From the NCBI GenBank assembly GCA_017416765.1, contig JAFQBE010000024.1, positions 1-64,000 of the forward strand: DNA of 64,000 nucleotides, read 5' to 3'. Source of the stretch: Clostridia bacterium (GTDB lineage Bacteria > Bacillota > Clostridia > Oscillospirales > Acutalibacteraceae). The translations under genes and the position numbers were made by a program. Below, piece after piece: positions 21,111-34,638 of this stretch (positions are counted from its first letter, which is position 1; the number at the start of each line of letters is the position of its first letter). The notes beneath the pieces are model-generated. The model saw only the letters and a list, made by a program, of their open reading frames with translations, ran no database searches and was not told the DNA's origin.

Positions 21111-21542
21111 TTATTCCTTTTTTGCTGCTGTTTCGCAGTAAATGCAGCGATAAACTTTTCTTTCTTTATCGGTAAGCTTAAACATCTGCGGCAATTCCTG
21201 CTCTGTTGAAGTGATACAGCGCGGATTCTTGCACTTTATGACATTTGTAAGCTTTTCGGGAAGCTCTAACTTTTTCTTTTCAACCGTTACTTCATTCTTA
21301 ATGATATTTACCGTTGCACCGGGGTCAATATAGCCGAGAATATCAGTATCAACATCAATATCGGCATCTACCTTGATAATATCCTTCTTACCCATTTTAG
21401 AGCTTGAAACATTCTTGATAAGTGCAACACTGCAATCCATTGAATCAAGACCGAGAAGATTATAAATCTGCATAGCCTTGCCTGCCGTAATATGGTCAAT
21501 AACAATACCGTTTTTAATTGAATCAATTTTCATTTTATTCAA
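21111..21542 (-). CDS. pyrI: Aspartate carbamoyltransferase regulatory chain
   Basis: The regulatory subunit of ATCase, which binds nucleotides and lets CTP/ATP tune the enzyme. The 143-residue protein has the N-terminal allosteric domain ([18 protein letters not shown], near the nucleotide site) and the C-terminal zinc domain with CKNPRC and CIYC as the four cysteine ligands that hold it to PyrB. It overlaps pyrB by 8 nt and is the last gene of the pyr operon. PyrI is typical of enteric bacteria, archaea and some clostridia or Bacteroidetes, not of Bacillus. Confidence 0.96.
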
Positions 21543-22446
21543 CCTCCAACAGTTTTAGGATAAGTGCCATGCGGATATATTTGCCGTTCAAAACCTGCTT
21601 GAAATAGCAAGCTCTGGGGTCATTGTCTATTTCAACGCTGATTTCGTTTACTCTGGGCAGCGGATGCATAATAGCTAAATCTGCCTTTGCTGTATTCAGA
21701 CGCTCAGGACGGAGAATATAGCTATCTTTAAGACGAAGATAATCTTCTTCATTAAAGAAACGCTCACGCTGTACGCGGGTCATATAAAGAATATCAAGTT
21801 CAGGCATTACGCTGTCAAGGTCAGTTGTCTGAACATATTCAAGGTTGTTCTTCTTCAAAGTTTCCTTAACATAACTCGGAAGCTTTAGCTCTACAGGAGA
21901 AACAAGAACAAACTTAATATTTTCATACCTTGAAAGAGCATTGATAAGAGAATGAACAGTTCTGCCGAATTTAAGGTCACCGCAGAAGCCGACAGTAAGG
22001 TTATCAAGTCTGCCCTTTTCGCGGTAGATTGTAAGTAAATCGGTAAGAGTCTGTGTCGGGTGGTTATGACCACCGTCACCTGCGTTAATAACAGGAATTG
22101 AAGCGTTCATAGCCGCTACCAACGGCGCACCTTCTTTAGGATGACGCATAGCTATAATATCTGCATAGCATGAGGTAGTTTTAGCAGTATCAGCTATACT
22201 TTCACCTTTTGCGGCAGAAGAACTCTGCGCTTCGGAAAAGCCCAATACATTGCCGCCAAGTTCATACATAGCCGCTTCAAAGCTTAGCCTTGTTCTGGTA
22301 GAGGGTTCAAAGAAAAGCGTCGCTAACTTTTTACCCTTACACTTTTCGCTGTATTTTACCGGATTAGCAATAATATCGTTAGCTTTATCAATAAGCTGCT
22401 GAATTTCGGTGGTATCAAGTTCGAGAATATCAATTAAACTTCTCAT
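21535..22446 (-). CDS. pyrB: Aspartate carbamoyltransferase catalytic chain
   Basis: Joins carbamoyl phosphate and L-aspartate to make carbamoyl aspartate. The 303-residue chain has the carbamoyl-phosphate loop [13 protein letters not shown], the SxxKGES-type loop [31 protein letters not shown] and the C-terminal HPLPRVNEI. All the main active-site residues are present. It begins 3 nt after pyrE with little ribosome site of its own, so translation is probably coupled, and overlaps pyrI by 8 nt. With PyrI it should form an allosteric holoenzyme. Confidence 0.97.
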
Positions 22447-22449
22447 AAC

Positions 22450-23082
22450 TTATGCACCAATCCAGCTTTCATCAGAAGGATTATTGCGGAACTTGATAAG
22501 GCGTGCAATATCTTCTTCTGCAATATAGCCTTCTTCAGCAGCTACTTCTGCAATGCAGTCAAAATCTGTAAGGCTTACATTTTTAACATTTGCAGCTGCA
22601 AGTCTGTCAAGACCCTTCTGCATACCGTAAGTGAAAATAGAAGCAATACCGAGAACTTCAGCACCGACTTCGCGAAGAGCATCAACAACATCAATTACGC
22701 TGCCGCCTGTGGAGATAAGGTCTTCAACAACAACAACCTTCTGACCTGCTTCAAGCTTACCTTCAATTCTGTTCTGTCTGCCGTGGTCCTTGCTTGAACC
22801 GCGGACATAACCCATGGGAAGGCCCATGATTTCTGCTGTGATAGCAGCATGAGCAATACCTGCTGTTGAAGTACCCATAAGAACTTCAACCTCGGGATAG
22901 TTTTCTTTTATGATTGCTGCAAGACCGTTTTCTACATCCTTACGAGCTTCAGGTGCTGTGAGGATAAGGCGGTTATCGCAGTAAACGGGGCTTTTGATAC
23001 CGCTTGCCCATGTAAAGGGTTCTTCAGGACGGAAAAATACAGCCTTAATTTTAAGCAAATCTTTAGCAATTAATTTTTTCAT
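22450..23082 (-). CDS. pyrE: Orotate phosphoribosyltransferase
   Basis: Adds PRPP-derived ribose 5-phosphate to orotate to give OMP. The 210-residue protein has the type I PRTase fold with FTWASGIKSPVYCDNR at the N terminus, the lysine/arginine-bearing loop VRGSSKDHGRQNRIEG and the PRPP-binding motif VVVEDLISTGGS. AAGGAG lies 12 nt ahead of the ATG. It sits between pyrF and pyrB in the operon. Confidence 0.97.
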   Translation of the reverse strand: MKKLIAKDLLKIKAVFFRPEEPFTWASGIKSPVYCDNRLILTAPEARKDVENGLAAIIKENYPEVEVLMGTSTAGIAHAAITAEIMGLPMGYVRGSSKDHGRQNRIEGKLEAGQKVVVVEDLISTGGSVIDVVDALREVGAEVLGIASIFTYGMQKGLDRLAAANVKNVSLTDFDCIAEVAAEEGYIAEEDIARLIKFRNNPSDESWIGA

Positions 23083-23102: not shown

Positions 23103-23801
23103 TTAATCAACAAATTCAGCAACGCAACGCTTATAAGCTGCAACCGGATCTTCCGCTGCTGTAATCGGACGACCTACTACAATATAATCGCTGCCGATTT
23201 CCTTTGCCTGTGCAGGAGTCATAACTCTGGACTGGTCGCCTATATCGCCGTCTGCAAAACGGACACCAGGAGTAACGGTTAAGAACTTTTCACCGCAGGT
23301 TTCGTGAACCTTACCTGCTTCAAGCGGTGAACATACAACACCGTCAAGACCTGCTGTAGCGGCGTTCTTTGCATAGTGCATAACAACCTTATCAATAGGT
23401 TCATTAATAAGAAGGTCTGCTTCCATTCTTTCCTGACTTGTGGAGGTAAGCTGTGTAACAGCAATAAGCAACGGACGCGTACCGTCAGGACGGGTAAGAC
23501 CTTCAAGACCTGCCTGCATCATTGTGATTGTACCGCCTGCGTGAAGGTTAGTCATATCAACATCAAGGTGTGAAAGCACAGCCATTGATTTTTTAACTGT
23601 GTTGGGAATATCGTGCAGCTTAAGGTCAAGGAAAATTTTGTGACCTCTTGCCTTTATTTCCTTTACAATTGCAGGACCTTCTGCATAGTAAAGCTCCATA
23701 CCGATTTTAACAAAAGGCTTGCAATCAGTGAACTTGTCAAGGAAATTCATTACATCAGCCTTGCTAGCAAAATCGCAAGCAATAATTACGTCTTTACCCA
23801 T
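23103..23801 (-). CDS. pyrF: Orotidine 5'-phosphate decarboxylase
   Basis: Decarboxylates OMP to UMP, the last step of the pathway. The 232-residue TIM-barrel protein has [27 protein letters not shown], the catalytic tetrad segment [16 protein letters not shown] (Lys-Asp-Lys-x-x-Asp), [11 protein letters not shown] and DYIVVGRPI. The length is that of the short bacterial form. Its ATG shares the A of the pyrD stop codon (TAATG). Confidence 0.97.
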
Positions 23802-24712
23802 TAATGTGCGCCTCCTATAATCTTTGATAAATCATCTATTTTATATTTTTCCATTACCTTGGGAAGATTGTCAATGATATTCTTGCAGGCAAACGGGTCA
23901 ACAAGGTTTGCCGCACCTACCTGAACAGCAGTTGCACCGGCAAGCATCATTTCAATAACATCTTCAGCAGTTGCAATACCGCCCATACCGATAATCGGAA
24001 CTTTAACAGCTTCAAATACCTGATAAACCATACGCAGTGCAACAGGCTTTATTGCAGGACCGGAAAAGCCGCCCATTTTATTGGCAATCACAGGCTTTTT
24101 TGTTTTAAGGTCAATACGCATACCAAGCATGGTATTAATCATGCTTATGCCGTCCGCACCCGCTGCTTCGCAAGCTTTTGCAATATCAACAATGTTTGTA
24201 ACATTAGGTGAAAGCTTTATATAAAGCGGTTTTTTCGTAACTTTGCGGCAGGCTGCTGTAACCTCAGCAGCAGCTTCGGGTGAAGTTCCGAAGCTCATGC
24301 CTCCGCCGTGAACATTCGGGCATGATACATTAACTTCAAACCAGCCAATCTGCTCCTGAGAATCAAGCTTTTCAACCGTATAGGCATAATCTTCAACAGA
24401 AAAACCGCTGACATTTGCCATAACAGGCTTATTAAAGCAAACTTTCAACTTCGGCAGTTCATTTTCAATAACCTTTTCAACACCGGGATTCTGTAAACCA
24501 ACGGCGTTAATCATACCGCTGTCACATTCAGCTATTCTCGGACAGGGATTACCGAAACGCGGGTCTTTGGTTGTACCTTTAAAAGAAAAAGTACCAAGAC
24601 AGTTTATATCATAAATTTCAGCAAATTCATAGCCGAAACCAAATGTACCGCTTGCAGGGATAACAGGGTTATCAAGCACAATTCCGCTTAAATTAACCTT
24701 TGTGTTTACCAT
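23801..24712 (-). CDS. pyrD: Dihydroorotate dehydrogenase B (NAD+), catalytic subunit
   Basis: FMN enzyme oxidising dihydroorotate to orotate. The 303-residue class 1B form is shown by its cysteine base in [11 protein letters not shown] (class 2 enzymes use Ser) and by the adjacent pyrK. Other motifs are [30 protein letters not shown], the FMN phosphate loop in [19 protein letters not shown], and AVQVGAAN. It overlaps pyrK by about 7 nt and pyrF by 1 nt. Electrons pass through PyrK to NAD+. Confidence 0.97.
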
Positions 24713-25437
24713 ATAATTTCCTCCCTCTCAAGTACGGGACCGTCTTTACATATGCGTTTGTTACCGTACTTTGTTTTACAGGAGCAACCCATACATGCGC
24801 CAAAACCGCAGCCCATTCTTTCTTCAAAGCTGTACTGACCGCTTGTAACGGCAACAGCTTCAATAGCCTTGAACATAGGCATAGGACCGCATGTGAAGAA
24901 ATAGGTATATTCAATCTCCTTCATAGCATCGGTTACGAAACCTTTGACACCGTAGCTGCCGTCAGCGGTTGCAACAAAAACCTCTGCACCGAGAGCTTTA
25001 AAGTCAGATTCAAGAAAGATTTCATCTTTGGTATTGAAGCCGAGTACAACAGTAACCTTTTTGCCTTCATTAATAAGCTTTTTGCAAAGATTATAAAGCG
25101 GAGGTACACCGACACCGCCGCCGATAAGCAGCGGCTTATCGCCGCACTTATTAAGGCTGTAGCCGTTACCGAGACCAACAAGAATGTCAAGCACTTTACC
25201 GCAGCTCATTTCACTCATCTGCTCTGTGCCGACACCTACTACTTTATAAATCAGAGTAATCGTGTTTTCATCAAAATCGCAGATTGAAATGGGACGGCGC
25301 AAAAACTTGCCTTCAAGCTTTATATTTACAAACTGACCTGATGCTGTAATAGCCGAAGTATCGCCTTTCACAACCATTTTATAGACGGTTTCGGTCAGTT
25401 TTTCATTAGAGATAATTTCATATAACCCTTGAGTCAT
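24706..25437 (-). CDS. pyrK: Dihydroorotate dehydrogenase B, electron transfer subunit
   Basis: The FAD/[2Fe-2S] subunit that passes electrons from PyrD to NAD+. The 243-residue ferredoxin-reductase-like protein has the FAD motif RRPISICDF, the NAD-binding GGGVGVPPLYNL and the cysteine cluster GFGACMGCSCKTKYG with a further Cys in RICKDGPVL. Two adjacent ATG codons compete; AAGGAG is better spaced for the second (25437). It is followed by overlapping pyrD. Confidence 0.96.
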   Translation of the reverse strand: MTQGLYEIISNEKLTETVYKMVVKGDTSAITASGQFVNIKLEGKFLRRPISICDFDENTITLIYKVVGVGTEQMSEMSCGKVLDILVGLGNGYSLNKCGDKPLLIGGGVGVPPLYNLCKKLINEGKKVTVVLGFNTKDEIFLESDFKALGAEVFVATADGSYGVKGFVTDAMKEIEYTYFFTCGPMPMFKAIEAVAVTSGQYSFEERMGCGFGACMGCSCKTKYGNKRICKDGPVLEREEIIW

Positions 25438-25454
25438 CATAATCTCCTTTGTAA

Positions 25455-28400
25455 TTATGCATCAATAGTTGAAATAAAGAGTGTTGTTTCTTCAAGAACA
25501 TCAAGAAGAACCTTAACAGTATCAAGCGATGTGAACATTGTTACATTATTTTCAACAGCACACTGTCTGATTTCGTGCCCGTCGGAAAGAGCGCCTACAG
25601 AGCTTGTATCTCTTGTATTGATAACATATGTTACATAGCCCTGACGGATTGCACGGAGAATTTCATCGCTGCCGTCACCGATTTTGGGAAGCATATGTGT
25701 TCTAATACCGTTTGCTTTAAGGAAATCTGCCGTACCTTCTGTAGCCTGAATATTGAAGCCCATGTTGTAGAAACGGCGGATAAGCGGAAGGGCTTCTTCC
25801 TTATCCTTATCGGAAATTGTTGCAAATACGGTACCGTAATTCATAACATTCATACCGCTTGCCTGAAGTGCTTTGTAAAGAGCGCGTGTAAGGCTGTTAT
25901 CGTAGCCGATGGCTTCACCAGTTGACTTCATTTCAGGTGAAAGGTAAGCATCAAGACCTCTGAGCTTAGAGAATGAGAATGCAGGTGCCTTTACATACCA
26001 ACGCTTCTTTCTCGGAGCTACATCGTAGTCAATACCCTGCTCTTTAAGTGACTTACCGAGCATACAGAGTGTTGCAATATCAGCAAGGCTGTAACCGGTT
26101 GACTTTGAAAGGAACGGAACGGTTCTTGAAGAACGGGGATTAACTTCAATAATGAATACATTTTCGTTCTTATCAACAATAAACTGAATATTGAACAGAC
26201 CGACTATGCCAATACCCAGACCAAGCTTCTTTGTATAGTCAATAATTGTTTCCTGAACCTTTTCAGAAATGCTGAAGGTCGGATAAACGCTGATTGAGTC
26301 GCCGGAGTGGATACCTGTTCTTTCAACAAGCTCCATAATACCGGGGACAAATACATCCGTACCGTCACAGATTGCGTCAACCTCAACTTCTTTACCGACA
26401 ATATATTTATCAACAAGAACAGGCTTGTCCTCATCAATTTCAACAGCTGTGTTGAGGTATCTGCGAAGCTGTGCTTCATCGGCAACAATTTCCATTGCGC
26501 GACCGCCAAGAACAAAGGAAGGACGGACAAGCACGGGATAGCCGATTCTTGCTGCAGCAGCAACACCGTCTTCAATTTTTGTAACAGCCTGACCTTCGGG
26601 CTGAGGAATGTTGAGTGACTGAAGAACCTTCTGGAAGGAATCGCGGTTTTCTGCACGCTCAATTGCGTCACAGTCTGTACCGATAATTTTTACGCCGCGG
26701 TCTTTAAGACCTTCGGAAAGGTTAATGGCAGTCTGACCGCCGAGTGAAGCCACAACACCTTCCGGTTTTTCAAGGTGAATGATGTTCATAACATCTTCTA
26801 TGCAGAGCGGTTCAAAATAAAGCTTGTCGGAACAGGTGTAGTCGGTTGAAACTGTTTCAGGGTTGTTATTGATAATGATAGCTTCATAGCCGTGCTTTTT
26901 GATTGTTGTAACAGCATGAACTGTTGAATAGTCAAATTCGACACCCTGACCGATACGGATAGGACCTGAACCTAAAACAACAATCTTTTTCTTATCGGAA
27001 ACGATTGATTCGTTTTCAGCCTCATAGGTAGAATAAAGGTAAGGAATATTACCTGCAAACTCTGCCGCACAGGTATCAATCATCTTGTATACCGGGAACA
27101 TATCATTTTCAACGCGAAGCTGGTAAACTTCCTTACCGGGTACACCCCAGAGCTGACCAATAAAATCATCGGAGAAGCCCATTTTCTTTGCCTTATAAAG
27201 GGTAGCAACATCGCCCTTGTTAGCCTTGACTTCATATTCCATCATGACAATGTTCTTAATCTTTTCGATAAAGAGCATGTCAATCTTTGTTGCATGGTAA
27301 ATCATACCCATATCTGTGCCGCGGCTGATAAGCTCAGCAATTGCATAGAAACGGTCATCAGTACCGTTGACGATATATTTGAGAAGTTCTTCTTCTGTAT
27401 ATGTGTCAAACTTCTTCATATAAAGGTGGTTTACACCGATTTCAAGAGAACGAGTAGCTTTGAGAAGGCTTTCTTCAATTGTTCTGCCGATGCTCATTAC
27501 TTCGCCGGTAGCCTTCATCTGAGTTGAAAGTGTGTTGTTAGCAGTTGAGAACTTATCGAACGGGAAACGGGGCATCTTTGTAACGACATAGTCAATTGTG
27601 GGTTCAAAAGCTGCATAGGTATTTGCAATTTTAATTTCATCAAGAGTCATGCCCATTGCAATTTTAGCTGTTACGCGTGCAATCGGATATCCGCTTGCTT
27701 TGGAAGCAAGAGCTGATGAACGAGAAACTCTGGGGTTGACTTCAATAAGATAATATGTGAATGAAAGCGGGTCAAGAGCAAACTGAACATTACAGCCGCC
27801 TTCAATTTTCAGTGCGCGGATAATTTTAAGTGCGCTGTCACGAAGCATTGTGTTTTCTTTTGCTGTAAGAGTCTGTGTGGGACAAACAACAACAGAATCG
27901 CCTGTATGGATGCCGACGGGGTCAACATTTTCCATGTTACAAATTGCTATTGCAGTATCGTTGGCATCGCGCATTACTTCATATTCAATTTCCTTGTAGC
28001 CCTTTATGCTCTTTTCAACAAGAACCTGATGTACAGGAGAAAGAGCAAGGGCATTTTTAAGGATTTCTTCACATTCTTCAGCGTTATCTGCAAAGCCGCC
28101 GCCTGTACCGCCGAGTGTGAAAGCGGGACGCAGAACAACGGGATAACCGATTTCTTCAGCTGCATCAAGACCTTCCTGCATGGTGTTGGCAATAAGTGAA
28201 GGAAGAACAGGCTCGCCGAGTCTTTCGCAAAGCTCTTTGAACAGCTCTCTGTCTTCTGCCATTTCGATGCTCTTACTGCTTGTACCAAGAAGCTCAACGC
28301 CGCATTCTTTAAGAATACCCTTCTTTTCAAGCTGCATTGCAAGGTTAAGACCTGTCTGACCGCCGATGCCGGGAATAATTGCATCGGGACGCTCGTAGCG

Positions 28401-28634
28401 GATAACCTTTGCAACATATTCAAGTGTAAGCGGTTCCATATATACCTTATCGGCAATAGTGGTATCTGTCATGATTGTAGCAGGGTTAGAGTTGCAGAGA
28501 ACAACTTCGTAGCCCTCTTCTTTAAGGGCAAGACATGCCTGAGTGCCGGCATAGTCAAATTCGGCAGCCTGACCGATAACAATCGGACCGGAACCGATAA
28601 CAAGTACCTTTTTTATGTCAGTTCTTTTTGCCAT
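25455..28634 (-). CDS. carB: Carbamoyl-phosphate synthetase large chain
   Basis: Makes carbamoyl phosphate from bicarbonate, two ATP and ammonia. The 1,059-residue chain is complete, with duplicated ATP-grasp halves: [20 protein letters not shown] opens the first and [18 protein letters not shown] the second. Each half has LGGTGGG- or LGGRAMEIV-type loops and a VNPRxSR metal-site motif. A C-terminal allosteric (MGS-like) domain of about 130 residues, with YVINTRD, binds UMP or IMP in relatives. All synthetase motifs look intact, in contrast to the CarA partner, so ammonia-dependent activity is expected. Confidence 0.97.
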
Positions 28635-28635
28635 C

Positions 28636-29718
28636 TTACTTGTCCCCCTTCATAAGGTTAATAAATCTTTCATAGAACATTGAACCCTCGCTCGGTAAGT
28701 ACTGAACGGAATATACATTATCCTGTTCACAGCTCATACCTTCAACAGTTTTATCAAAAAGGTTGATATGAGTAACAACAAGCTCGGTACCTTCGACAGA
28801 AGCAGCATCAACTGCGTAACCGTGGTTCTGTGAATGGTTTTTGAATGTATTATTGATAAGTGACTGAACGGAATGGTTGCAGCCTCTGTGACCGCACTTG
28901 AGCTTAAATGTTTTTGCACCGTAGGCAAGACCGATAATTTCATGACCAAGACCTACACCGAAAATCGGGCATTTACCTTTAAGCTCTTTTACAAGTTCAA
29001 TAACAGGCTTGACATCTTCGGGGTTACCGGGACCATCGGAAATATAAATTCCGTCAGGCTTCATTTTCATAACTTCTTCAGAGCTTGTGTTGTAGGGAAC
29101 AACAGTTATATTACAGCCTCTTGCATTGAGTGTACGGATAAGGCTGAGTTTAATACCGCAGTCAATTGCAACAACATTGTATTTCATGTTGGGAGTTCTT
29201 GAATACCAGCGCTTTTTACAGCTTACCTTTTCAACCGCATCTGTAGGAATTTCAGTGCTGTTTAGAACTTCAAGAGCCTTTTCTTTGGGTGTATCGGCAG
29301 AAGTGAAAATCACCTTACAAGTTCCGTTATCGCGGAGCTTGCGGGTAAGCTCGCGTGTATCAAGTCCGCTGATACCGGGAATTTTATAATCTTCCATAAC
29401 TTCTGCAAGTGTTTTTGTTGCGCGGAAGTTTGAAGGAACATCGTTATATTCTCTGACTACAAGCCCACCGAGTGTGGGAACTTTGGTTTCAAAATCGTCA
29501 TCCGCCGTACCGCAGTTACCAATCAACGGATAAGTCATAACAACCGCCTGATAAGTGTAGGTTGGGTCAGAAATGATTTCCTGGTAGCCAAGCATTGCTG
29601 TGTTGAAAACAAGCTCGCATACGCGTTCACACTCGTAGCCGAAGCTGTATCCGTAATATTCGCTACCGTCTTCAAGCACGATTTTTCTGTCATAAGACAT
29701 CAGTTTGAGTTTATCCAT
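28636..29718 (-). CDS. carA: Carbamoyl-phosphate synthetase small chain with degenerate glutaminase site
   Basis: CarA normally hydrolyses glutamine and channels ammonia to CarB. The 360-residue chain has the whole fold: an N-terminal domain ([23 protein letters not shown]) and a class I amidotransferase domain ([19 protein letters not shown]). The catalytic triad is gone. The nucleophile elbow, normally G-I-C-L-G-H-Q, reads GVGLGHE (Cys to Gly), and the usual H-P-E near the C terminus reads YLPSEG (His to Leu, Glu to Ser). I checked both codon stretches on the DNA. GGAGG fixes the ATG at 29718, giving a 19-nt overlap with pyrC. It should not cleave glutamine; structural support of CarB is inferred. 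Confidence 0.93.
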
Positions 29719-30920
29719 ACTGCTTTACCTCCGCATACAGTTAATTTACTTATTCCATAAACCGCTTTTCCTTCAAAGGGAGTGCTTCTGCCCATTGAAA
29801 GGAATTCATCGGGATTTATAACATATTCTTTTTCAAGGTCGAAAACGCAGATATCATCGTTAAATTTCAGACCAAAGCGTTTACGGGGATTTATTGACAT
29901 CAGTTCAATCAGCTTTTCAAGGGTGATAACACCTTTTTTAACAAGCTCAGTATACAAAACCGGGAAAGCGGTTTCAATACCCACAACACCCATAAGACTG
30001 CCCGAAAGACCTTTTGATTTCTCTTCTGCACTGTGGGGTGCATGGTCGGTTGCTATCATATCAATAGTACCGTCTTTAATACCTTCAATAAGTTCAAGCC
30101 TGTCTTCTTCACTGCGTATCGGCGGATTCATTTTAAATCTGCCGTTTTCCTGCAGCATACTGTCGTTCATAACAAGGTAATGCGGAGCTGTTTCACAGGT
30201 TACGTCAACTCCCCTTTTCTTGGCTTCACGGATAAGACGCACACTCTCTTTTGTAGAAATATGGCAGACATGGTATTTGCAGCCCGTCTGCTCTGCAAGC
30301 TTTAAATCGCGTTCAATGGGCTTCCATTCGCTTTCGCTGCAAATGCCCTTGTGACCGTGTGCTTTAGCATATTCGCCATCGTGTATATAACCGCCGCGGA
30401 GCAAAGAATTATCTTCACAATGCGCAACTAAAATTTTATTAAGTGCTTTTGCCTTCTTCATGGCCTCAAGCATCAGTTCTTCGCTTTGAACTCCCCTGCC
30501 GTCGTCAGAAAAAGCACAGCAAAGCGGTGATAGACCTTCGAAATCAGAAAGCTTTTCACCCTGTTGACCAACAGTAATTGAAGCATAAGGGTGAACATTT
30601 ATCACTGCTGTTTTTTCAATAATATCACGCTGAAGATTAATTGCTTCAACGCAATCTGGAACGGGATTTAAATTGGGCATTGAAAAAACATCGGTATATC
30701 CGCCGCGGGCTGCAGCGGATGAACCGGATAAAATGGTTTCTTTATGAAAAAATCCCGGCTCTCTGAGGTGAACATGCACATCACAAAAAGCGGGAAATAT
30801 AAAGCAATTATTAAATTCAAGGTCAATATTCTGACCTCCCTGAAGATGAACTTCAGCGAAATCAGCTTTTGTGAATTTACCGTTATCGTATTTTGTGCAA
30901 TTGGTAAATACCGCCTTCAT
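29700..30920 (-). CDS. pyrC: Dihydroorotase
   Basis: Zinc amidohydrolase that cyclises carbamoyl aspartate to dihydroorotate. The 406-residue protein is of the class I (long) type, with CDVHVHLREPG (the two His ligands), the Asp/Lys region EDNSLL, CHISTKESVRLI, CETAPHYL and the catalytic Asp in IATDHAPHS. It is the first structural gene of the pyr operon, with AGGAG before the ATG, downstream of an attenuator leader. Confidence 0.96.
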   Translation of the reverse strand: MKAVFTNCTKYDNGKFTKADFAEVHLQGGQNIDLEFNNCFIFPAFCDVHVHLREPGFFHKETILSGSSAAARGGYTDVFSMPNLNPVPDCVEAINLQRDIIEKTAVINVHPYASITVGQQGEKLSDFEGLSPLCCAFSDDGRGVQSEELMLEAMKKAKALNKILVAHCEDNSLLRGGYIHDGEYAKAHGHKGICSESEWKPIERDLKLAEQTGCKYHVCHISTKESVRLIREAKKRGVDVTCETAPHYLVMNDSMLQENGRFKMNPPIRSEEDRLELIEGIKDGTIDMIATDHAPHSAEEKSKGLSGSLMGVVGIETAFPVLYTELVKKGVITLEKLIELMSINPRKRFGLKFNDDICVFDLEKEYVINPDEFLSMGRSTPFEGKAVYGISKLTVCGGKAVWINSN

Positions 30921-32623: not shown

Positions 32624-32665
32624 AAGGCTTTCCGTCAAACGAAAACGGAAAGCCTTTGTTTTATT
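32624..32665 (+). terminator. Terminator after the 31233 membrane protein gene
   Basis: A 12-bp perfect stem (32624-32635 with 32645-32656), 9-nt loop, followed by TGTTTTATTTATT. On the minus strand it may also weakly terminate the convergent phosphodiesterase transcript. Confidence 0.88.
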
Positions 32666-33692
32666 TATTCATTTTTGTTACAACTTCGTAAGCCATATCG
32701 GGATAATCGGTCATAATACAGTCAGCACCGTTAGCGGTAAGATACTCAACAGCTTCTTCACCGTTGATTGTCCAATACTGTGCAGCGATATTGTACTTAT
32801 GCGCATAGTTGATAACTTCGCGTGTACCGAGGTTAATCAAACCGTTTGCAGCGCTGTCACCGTAAGGAATCTGTAAAGCTACATAAGAAACATCTGCAAC
32901 ATCAAGGTCCCAACCCATTCTTGCATAAATGTAAAACTGAAGAACCTCATCAATACCTGCCGAACGCGGTACTTCAGTATATTCTGTACGCATATAGTAT
33001 GAAACCATAGGCTTTGAGCTTGCCCAGATTACTCTGTCCCAAAGGCCACGCTCTGTAACGATTTCATAAAGCTTATCTGCAGCTTTATAGCCTTCTTTTC
33101 CGCTATTTTTAATTTCGATTATGTAATTATATTTCGTGCCGTTTTTGTTAGCTTCAATAAGGTCAATAACTTCTTGTGCAGTGGAAACACGAAGGTTATC
33201 GGGAATATCTTCACCTCTAAGTCCGCGGTAAGGATACTCGCCGTTCAGCTCGAAATTCTCGCCCATATTAAGGTTAGCTTTAGCTTCGGCAAGTGTAAGG
33301 TCTGTTGCTTTGACATCGCTTCTTCCGTAAAATTCAACGGCATTTGTAGTTGAATCATATGTAAGGTCGTGCATAACAATCAGTTCACCGTCAGCGGTAA
33401 GCTGAACATCAAACTCAAAGGTATCAACGCCATACTCGTCTGTCTGTTTAAGCATTGTTTCAAACGCCATAAGCGTATTCTGCGGCGCAACACCTGCACC
33501 TGAACGGTGCGCAGAAATATCGGGATTCCCGTATTCTACAATATACGGATTGGTGGCATTTTCATTGATAATAACTTCTGTACCGGGCTTATCGTTCATG
33601 CCCATGGTAACAAGCATGGGTATAAGCGCAAAAACGGTAGCAACAACATGATACAGCTTCTGCAAGCCAATAATAATGGTCCCTACTGACAT
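32661..33692 (-). CDS. Glycerophosphodiester phosphodiesterase, membrane-anchored (copy 1)
   Basis: A GDPD-family TIM-barrel enzyme that splits glycerophosphodiesters (deacylated phospholipids, or lipoteichoic-acid backbones) to glycerol 3-phosphate and an alcohol. The 343-residue protein has an N-terminal hydrophobic anchor (about 8-30). Its catalytic motifs are ISAHRSGAGVAPQNTLMAFE (first catalytic His), FEFDVQLTADGELIVMHDLTYDSTTN (metal Glu/Asp and second His) and YNYIIEIKNSG (metal Glu). AAGGAG lies 9 nt before the ATG. It is probably anchored and outward-facing. A related copy lies just upstream with a separate promoter and terminator. Confidence 0.9.
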   Translation of the reverse strand: MSVGTIIIGLQKLYHVVATVFALIPMLVTMGMNDKPGTEVIINENATNPYIVEYGNPDISAHRSGAGVAPQNTLMAFETMLKQTDEYGVDTFEFDVQLTADGELIVMHDLTYDSTTNAVEFYGRSDVKATDLTLAEAKANLNMGENFELNGEYPYRGLRGEDIPDNLRVSTAQEVIDLIEANKNGTKYNYIIEIKNSGKEGYKAADKLYEIVTERGLWDRVIWASSKPMVSYYMRTEYTEVPRSAGIDEVLQFYIYARMGWDLDVADVSYVALQIPYGDSAANGLINLGTREVINYAHKYNIAAQYWTINGEEAVEYLTANGADCIMTDYPDMAYEVVTKMNK

Positions 33693-33726
33693 TTTATCGT
33701 ACTCCTTAAATTAACAAATTATTCTT

Positions 33727-33754
33727 ATTATACATAATAAAATTTTCTTGTCAA
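33727..33754 (-). promoter_or_regulatory. Promoter of phosphodiesterase copy 1
   Basis: On the minus strand TTGACA (33749-33754), 16-bp spacer, TATAAT (33727-33732). The -35 lies in the T-run of the preceding terminator. Confidence 0.75.
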
Positions 33755-33783
33755 GAAAAAATCCCTTTGCAAAAACAAAGGGA
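33752..33783 (-). terminator. Terminator of phosphodiesterase copy 2
   Basis: On the minus strand an 8-bp stem (33776-33783 with 33762-33769), 6-nt loop, then a run of six Ts. It separates the two phosphodiesterase genes. Confidence 0.85.
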
Positions 33784-33795
33784 AAATATTTGATA

Positions 33796-34638
33796 TCAAT
33801 TGCAGAAAACATCAGTTTCCATATAACGAACACCCATGTCGTAGAGCATTTTTGCATCCTCTACAGTATTTACAGTCCAGAAGGAAACTCCGATACCGGC
33901 ATCAACAGCAAGCTGAATAGTAGCCTGATTGTTTCTTTCAAGGTTGGGAGAAAGCCAGACATTGCTGCCGAGCGCCTGTGCCTGAGCGATATTTTCCGCT
34001 GTAATTTCATCAATAAGATACCAGAGCTCTATACTCGGGTCAAGCTTGTGAATAATCTCAAGCTGCTTGAAATCAAAGGAAATTACAATAGCCTGTTCAG
34101 TAAGATTCTTTGCCTTGACCGCATCAACAACCGTATAAAGCAAATCATAGTTGTCAGCCTTGATTTCAATCTGCGGACGGGTTTTAGTACCAACGAAAAC
34201 ATCAAGGTATTCATCAAGCGTAGCAATTCTCAAATCTTCTTTCCAGAAGTTTGCCCCCCACTTGTAGCGGAAGGATTTAAGCTCTTCAAGTGTATATTCC
34301 TTTACTTCACCGTACTGGCAGAACTGTGCATCGGTTGTGCTGTTGTGAATAAGCACCCATTCATTATCCTTAGTAAGGTGAATATCGCATTCAGCAGTAT
34401 AGTAGCCGAGTTCAACTGAAGCTTCGTATGCAGGCAGAGAATTCTGCGGGGCAACCTTGTGAACACCGCGGTGTGCGGTAAGATAAACGGGGTCCTCCGC
34501 TGTGCCTACACCTTGCTCGCTTAAAGAAATAACCTCCTGCGGCTGATTGAACAGCTTTACAACATGCAGAAAAGGAAGAAAAGGAGAAAAATAGAGCGGA
34601 ACAAGAATCATAGAAATGAATTTATTGAGGAATACCAT
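33796..34638 (-). CDS. Glycerophosphodiester phosphodiesterase, membrane-anchored (copy 2)
   Basis: A second GDPD-family enzyme of 280 residues, also with an N-terminal hydrophobic segment (about 5-25). Motifs are TAHRGVHKVAPQNSLPAYE, AECDIHLTKDNEWVLIHNSTTD and RPQIEIKADNY, so all catalytic positions are present. It is shorter than copy 1 and diverged from it, more an old paralogue than a recent duplicate. It has its own promoter (34675-34703) and terminator, and is divergent from the alpha-galactosidase operon. Its substrate (phospholipid- or teichoic-acid-derived) cannot be told. Confidence 0.88.
   Translation of the reverse strand: MVFLNKFISMILVPLYFSPFLPFLHVVKLFNQPQEVISLSEQGVGTAEDPVYLTAHRGVHKVAPQNSLPAYEASVELGYYTAECDIHLTKDNEWVLIHNSTTDAQFCQYGEVKEYTLEELKSFRYKWGANFWKEDLRIATLDEYLDVFVGTKTRPQIEIKADNYDLLYTVVDAVKAKNLTEQAIVISFDFKQLEIIHKLDPSIELWYLIDEITAENIAQAQALGSNVWLSPNLERNNQATIQLAVDAGIGVSFWTVNTVEDAKMLYDMGVRYMETDVFCN

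Follow-up and report, generated by a model that had tools for sequence, protein, structure and literature searches.

The small subunit of carbamoyl phosphate synthetase (CPS) encoded in the window, by which we mean the whole 64,000-nucleotide stretch of DNA analysed here, is very probably a pseudo-glutaminase. We argue that this CarA serves as the scaffold of an ammonia-dependent CarAB, and that its change belongs to a lineage-wide move from glutamine to ammonia. The argument starts from what comparison of sequences establishes: the loss of the catalytic triad and pocket, purifying selection, a conserved CarB, the recurrence of the loss and its linkage to GuaA and PyrG.

The lost active site

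The frame of carA is open from an ATG start with GGAGG 9 bases upstream, and this start overlaps the 3' end of pyrC by 19 bases. The preliminary description had the coordinates of the gene right but left its strand unstated (Table 1). The product scores 386.7 bits against TIGR01368 (cut-off 307.35) and the gene lies next to carB, which identifies it as the CPS small subunit. Both Pfam domains score above their cut-offs and stand in order, PF00988 at residues 13-136 and PF00117 at 184-340.

When the protein is aligned to E. coli CarA, whose numbers are used for sites here, its nucleophile elbow reads GVGLGHE, with Gly256 in the place of the catalytic Cys269. In the stretch QYLPSE, Leu341 falls on His353 and Ser343 on Glu355. 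The earlier claim that the whole triad is replaced is borne out by the alignment and by the codons. Of the residues that we take to form the glutamine pocket, S47 and Q273 are replaced by Thr53 and Glu260, and N311 is kept as Asn298. The loop after H-P-E, which contributes to the ammonia tunnel on the CarA side, is shortened in six of the seven dead-CarA species of the genus, including that of the window. The Gly293 site holds Cys in the window CarA and in 11 of the 28 dead CarA of the window's type. This site is also variable (Ala, Val, Ile) among intact CarA of a second type. A glutamine-hydrolysing CPS (CPS II) is recognised by the Cys-His-Glu triad of a class-I amidotransferase and by the S47/Q273/N311 pocket; the window CarA has none of the first and only the Asn of the second. 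An ammonia-dependent CPS is recognised by a glutaminase-like domain without the triad alongside kept synthetase residues. The window enzyme has this combination, and on its sequence it would be classed there.

The gene belongs to the run pyrC-carA-carB-pyrK-pyrD-pyrF-pyrE-pyrB. A search of the whole genome (2.77 Mb, 98% complete) for a second CarA, a check that the preliminary description had proposed, found none. The weak second match of this search is a PuuD-like hydrolase and was rejected as a CarA. In the CarB of the window the positions that correspond to E. coli R129, R169, E215, N283, E299, N301 and R306 are conserved, as are the gate residues C232 and A314. Its A251 site is Cys, as it is in 25 of the 72 intact CarB. 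Elsewhere in the window, two adjoining ORFs at 32661-34638 resemble glycerophosphodiester phosphodiesterases by eye.

Table 1. Genes of the pyr operon and codons of carA discussed in the text. Positions are those of the window and site numbers those of E. coli CarA.
Feature	Position	Strand	Remark
pyrB	21535..22446	minus	named by eye; order conserved in relatives
pyrE	22450..23082	minus	named by eye; order conserved in relatives
pyrF	23103..23801	minus	named by eye; order conserved in relatives
pyrD	23801..24712	minus	named by eye; order conserved in relatives
pyrK	24706..25440	minus	named by eye; order conserved in relatives
carB, synthetase subunit	25455..28634	minus	same strand as carA, 1 base apart
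carA, CPS small subunit, dead glutaminase domain, 360 aa	28636..29718	minus	ORF and profile matches
carA codon 343, AGC (Ser), at Glu355	28690..28692	minus	loop after it shortened
carA codon 341, TTA (Leu), at His353	28696..28698	minus	
carA codon 280, TGC (Cys), at Gly293 site	28879..28881	minus	
carA codon 260, GAA (Glu), at Gln273	28939..28941	minus	
carA codon 256, GGT (Gly), at catalytic Cys269	28951..28953	minus	
carA codon 53, ACC (Thr), at Ser47	29560..29562	minus	
pyrC, upstream of carA	29700..30920	minus	named by eye

Selection and recurrence

Seven of the 11 genomes of the genus share this form of CarA (75-100% identity); their elbow is GVGLGHE or GAGLGHE, and H-P-E is missing. The proposed check on close relatives has therefore turned out in favour of a shared loss, common to seven species. 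One of the seven, G010, holds an intact copy as well. The other four genomes are 77-86% complete; three of them yielded a distant intact CarA and nothing else, and the fourth yielded no CarA. Two of the three named records of the clade come from goat and water-deer cecum and the third names no host. Since two are cecal, a gut setting fits the clade. The gut habitat suggested earlier agrees with these records, among which the host of the window's own genome does not figure.

The dead glutaminase domain is under purifying selection nearly as strong as that on the intact one. Its omega (dN/dS) is 0.074 and 0.044 in two dead clades, compared with 0.042 in an intact clade. Fixing omega at 1 (kappa held at 1.6) makes the fit of the dead domain worse by 229 and 261 log units. 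The ratio that the preliminary description wanted estimated is thus far below 1 in the dead domain itself. Omega is 0.067 over the whole of carA, and 0.031 and 0.015 for carB in the two dead clades (five of the six genomes were used in the second). One can imagine that the missing residues reflect a pseudogene or a sequencing artefact, but nothing further speaks for this. A pseudogene should have a broken frame or a ratio near 1. Instead the same kind of elbow recurs in seven separately assembled species, with the frame open in all seven, the ribosome site in place and dN/dS low. This effectively rules out both decay and error, and the earlier judgement that the gene is not a decayed pseudogene stands.

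For a wider view, we read 272 different CarA, each 280 aa or longer, from fetched loci, with matches shorter than 600 bases dropped. It must be noted that this sample is biased: a locus entered it by resembling either the window CarA or the G307 CPS without glutaminase described below, and some genomes with two CarA matches had one read only (e.g. G190, G263). The residue at Cys269 is Cys in 210 of these proteins, Gly in 52, Ser in 6, Ala in 2 and Asp in 2. Cys is missing from 62 of the 272, and 52 of these 62 have Gly. Gly eases the strain of the nucleophile elbow, so its dominance would suit a protein that is kept for its fold. The rest of the site has loosened unevenly. In intact CarA (n=205, with C, H and E all present) S47 is kept in 204 and K202, Q273 and N311 in 205 each. 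In dead CarA (n=62) the same residues are kept in 16, 37, 37 and 50, while G241 is kept in all 62 and L270 in 58.

A tree of 96 rows was built after removal of the trait columns. It requires 24 changes of the Cys/non-Cys label (bootstrap 22-25), of which 12 are forced by the supported branches taken by themselves. In a quick preliminary tree with 137 rows the corresponding figures were 19 and 8. These trees count changes and do not by themselves split loss from gain. Judged by the proteins read, loss of the CarA glutaminase is recurrent among gut bacteria. The triad loss first described in the window is real, but its scope has to be corrected, as it is not limited to this genus. Six species of another genus have GIGLGNL at the elbow and a further pair has GIGLGCL. 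G299 has Cys replaced by Ser with His and Glu kept, and 29 other copies of its genus read alongside it are intact. Six records of Rikenellaceae (Bacteroidota) have a dead CarA in pyr operons, with Cys changed to Asp, Gly or Ser (L178, L183, L171, L176, L208, L211).

Another dead-CarA clade comprises 8 rows from 8 genomes in 6 genera, and each of these genomes has an intact CarA too (L220, L236, L242, L272, L274, L283, L284, L286). Retention beside an intact copy in all eight would suit a dead CarA that has been turned to a new role, such as a regulator or a binder of some other metabolite, with the nitrogen donor being secondary. However, the window CarA is the only one found in its genome, and it sits in the pyr operon with carB. 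The pocket positions S47, Q273, H353 and E355 also differ between dead lineages, a variety that gives no hint of a new conserved ligand. We consider a new role very unlikely.

In two Lapin assemblies (L210, L212) carA is interrupted by frame breaks around residue 65. G014, G032, G036 and others of the family gave no CarA match, and a weak match to the query that ends in a CarB start hints at CarB without CarA; we do not count this hint as evidence. An apparent stand-alone CarA N-domain in G098 was rejected because the contig ends there.

The CarB partners of dead CarA share changes of their own. We took columns at least 93% conserved in the 63 intact CarB that are more than 68% identical to the window's. 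Fifteen of these columns are changed in at least 4 of 12 dead lineages. When 12 intact CarB were drawn at random 1000 times, 2 draws reached this count (mean 0.68). The thresholds of 93% and four lineages were our choice. The identity filter and one extra lineage were added after a first run, and before that the result was weaker, with 8 columns in 11 lineages against all 72 intact CarB and 8 of 500 random sets reaching 8. No single column is significant on independent pairs (6 pairs). By the domain limits that we assume, 12 of the 15 columns lie in the carboxyphosphate domain and 3 in the oligomerisation domain. All 15 are within residues 1-553, where 320 of the 570 eligible columns are found (Fisher p 0.0002). 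These two domains are the ones described in PMC6245113 as touching the small subunit.

GuaA, PyrG and gene neighbourhoods

The search of the window's genome for class-I GATases turned up three: the dead CarA, a HisH with its triad and the PuuD-like hydrolase. The latter two keep their catalytic motifs, so glutamine has not been wholly abandoned. The GMP synthetase (GuaA) is 338 aa long and has no GATase domain (L306:1495-2511, contig C46 of this genome). CTP synthase (PyrG) was not found in this genome by a search that was positive in 14 of 14 control genomes. This glutaminase-free GuaA scores 436 bits against an NCBIfam cut-off of 400 for the name glutamine-hydrolysing GMP synthase.

A separate amidase could hydrolyse glutamine in trans and hand the ammonia to CarAB, in which case the dependence on glutamine would stay. 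Glutamine amidotransferases commonly channel ammonia, and HisH and the PuuD-like hydrolase are present with intact motifs. Against this, only those three class-I GATases were found in the genome, GuaA has lost its glutaminase domain too, and in the window operon the genes from pyrC to pyrB leave no space for another. Donation in trans seems to us highly improbable.

The absence of PyrG extends well beyond this genome. PF06418 (CTP synthase) has no match in 109 of 300 genomes of the family, the window's included; among the 230 genomes with a completeness of 90% or more, 66 have no match. CarA was read in 145 genomes of the family sample, from which G094 was dropped as its CarA is cut by a contig end. 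PyrG is absent from 32 of the 33 genomes in which all CarA read are triad-broken (29 without Cys and 4 with Cys but without His), compared with 9 of the 111 with an intact CarA (Fisher 1e-22). Five of these nine are less than 85% complete and a sixth, G268, holds a dead copy too. It must be noted that 12 genomes were read because PyrG was absent. Eleven gave a CarA (8 triad-broken, 3 intact) and one, G120, gave none. Without those 11 a hand count still has PyrG absent in 24 of 25 triad-broken genomes and in 6 of 108 intact ones. We scored PyrG and GuaA manually and counted a weak PyrG match in G195 (E 5e-4) as absence. On independent pairs of the CarA tree the association of PyrG with CarA holds: of 9 pairs, 6.5 on average go the same way and none the opposite way (median p 0.016).

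GuaA follows the same pattern less tightly. Where its state is known, only a short or stub GuaA is present in 20 of 25 triad-broken genomes and in 2 of 90 intact ones. On independent pairs this is not significant (7 pairs, 4.2 the same way, none opposite, median p 0.125). There are exceptions. G140 has a dead CarA with both PyrG and a full-length GuaA; G016, G216 and G280 have a dead CarA and a full-length GuaA; and G195 has a full one plus a stub. In G299 and G172 GuaA is about 430 aa long with a shrunken glutaminase remnant (L351:1495-2787, L357:114-1403). The Pfam match there covers the first 77 of 190 positions and, going by length and match, there is no Cys elbow; at the level of sequence this remnant is an intermediate of domain erosion. 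PyrG was found near guaA in 1 of 16 fetched stretches (G010), and the other match was a PuuD-like hydrolase. The glutaminase-free GuaA and the absence of PyrG, both tied to a triad-broken CarA in the family sample, strengthen the earlier suggestion that this synthetase may use ammonia directly.

The neighbourhoods of intact and dead CarA differ. We labelled a nitrogen cluster where carA is beside at least one of glutamine synthetase III, AmtB, AsnB, GlmS, PurF, PyrG or full GuaA. Neighbour names were checked on examples, and dead loci of the second type were left out because their flanks are too short. For 84 intact CarA the context spans 6.5 kb or more; 16 of them have such nitrogen or glutamine-enzyme neighbours, 34 are in pyr operons, 5 are beside an argF-like gene and 29 are elsewhere. 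Among dead CarA with context (n=25), 22 are in pyr operons, none is in a nitrogen cluster and 3 are elsewhere. One intact locus (L043) has the order asnB-guaA-pyrG-carA-carB-nadE. A related cluster of Prevotella ruminicola (amtB, glnK, asnB, glnN, gltBD, dapF) rises with ample ammonium (PMC5552732), so we do not call the nitrogen cluster a low-nitrogen one.

These neighbourhoods raise the possibility of two parallel enzyme sets. An ammonia-type set would comprise the pyr-operon CarAB with its dead CarA and the short GuaA. A glutamine-type set, housed in the nitrogen-assimilation cluster, would comprise GuaA, PyrG, CarAB, PurF, GlmS and AsnB with glutamine synthetase III and AmtB, in varied combinations. 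Loss of the cluster would remove intact CarA, full GuaA and PyrG together, and the tight co-loss of these three is the outcome expected from such an event. The cluster neighbours at 16 of 84 intact loci and at none of 25 dead ones agree with this, as do the eight intact-CarA genomes that hold full and short GuaA together. G010 holds both sets, but it may be a mixed assembly; a contig of 6.5 kb carries its full GuaA and its PyrG. The 34 intact CarA in pyr operons without the cluster and the 29 elsewhere speak against two sets, and no ammonia-type CTP synthase is known that would complete the ammonia set. On balance the existence of two sets is a serious possibility that we would put a little short of even. 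It refines the explanation of CarA as a pseudo-glutaminase and does not oppose it. More tentatively still, gut Clostridia and perhaps some Bacteroidota may carry interchangeable glutamine-type and ammonia-type amidating sets, of which specialists of the ammonia-rich gut, like the organism of the window, kept the ammonia set only. That set would then consist of the dead-CarA CPS, the glutaminase-free GuaA and a candidate CTP-forming enzyme, not yet recognised, in place of PyrG, while the glutamine set would be bundled with glutamine synthetase III and AmtB.

A probable ammonia-dependent CarAB and its meaning

We return to CarA as a pseudo-glutaminase. Going by its profile matches, the protein would keep its fold and its partnership with CarB and would be unable to hydrolyse glutamine. 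Free ammonia would then enter CarB directly, and CarAB would use it to make the carbamoyl phosphate needed for pyrimidines; we infer both ammonia as the physiological donor and its path. CarB would need the N-terminal domain of CarA, which would explain why this domain is kept, with the dead domain remaining as scaffold. Nucleotide amidation would have shifted from glutamine to ammonia across the lineage, as the GuaA glutaminase is lost and PyrG was not found in the genome searched.

G307, whose pyr-operon CarA is dead, carries the extreme case. A fused ORF of 1511 aa (L122:5817-10352) has no GATase domain and runs from the CarA N-terminal domain (PF00988, 8-130) through CarB to DapF, within what looks by eye like an argG-argH-argF cluster. 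The glutaminase is gone here and the N-terminal domain remains, which suggests that the latter is the part of CarA that the synthetase needs. At four other loci (L050, L053, L055, L056) the CarB C-terminus is fused to a DapF-like stretch, giving 1343-1356 aa, beside an argF-like gene and an intact CarA.

Compared with E. coli CarAB (CPS II), the window enzyme has the same two subunits and domain order, with CarB aligned over 1037 residues, but its CarA lacks the triad, has S47 and Q273 changed and has the loop after H-P-E shortened. Variants of the E. coli enzyme whose tunnel is blocked or perforated have normal activity with external ammonia (PMC4655335). Human CPS1 (PDB 5DOT/5DOU) likewise has an inactive glutaminase-like domain with the catalytic Cys replaced, by Ser, and uses outside ammonia, for which a path along the interface of the two moieties has been proposed (PMC4655335). 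Its Gly293 site is Gln, which blocks the old ammonia tunnel (PMC4655335), whereas that of the window CarA is Cys. The preliminary description had vertebrate CPS1 losing the same cysteine. This holds for human CPS1 but not for vertebrates at large, as frog CPS1 keeps the triad and yet cannot use glutamine (PMC4655335). The vertebrate CPS I family is single-chain. The window enzyme is two chains from two genes of a bacterial pyrimidine operon, has lost His and Glu in addition to the change of Cys to Gly, and by its operon is biosynthetic and does not serve ammonia disposal. It would work like a CPS I but, with its two genes, is not a CPS I.

Other enzymes offer looser parallels. Single-domain NAD synthetases take ammonia without a glutaminase domain, and there is evidence for ammonia as their physiological donor (PMC3376133). 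That form is thought to be ancestral, while here the glutaminase was lost and the dead CPS domain mostly remains. Archaeal PurF' without the catalytic Cys is a proposed ammonia-dependent amidotransferase form (PMC3261824), but it is another enzyme and its ammonia-dependent form is only predicted. The 41 kDa CPS of Methanobrevibacter smithii also comes from a gut organism and is described as a dimer of synthetase units only (PMC6022934), but it is a single small synthetase unit and not a CarAB minus its glutaminase.

Glutamine-dependent carbamoyl-phosphate synthesis is a textbook bacterial trait, and loss of the CPS glutaminase is presented as an event of vertebrate evolution. Among the papers listed from one open-access library, which most subscription papers fall outside, we found none with glutaminase-dead bacterial CarA as its topic by title or opening lines. 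Supported branches of the bacterial CarA tree show at least 12 changes of the trait. Steps of erosion can be seen side by side: the triad Cys alone in G299, the triad and much of the pocket in the window, and the whole domain in the fused CPS of G307. The finding also exposes an error in annotation: NCBIfam models that match over their cut-offs call these proteins glutamine-hydrolysing. For enzymology, these natural variants of CarA and CarB could be used to map how external ammonia enters CPS. For the organisms themselves, the pattern predicts which gut bacteria would have to have free ammonia to make their nucleotides.
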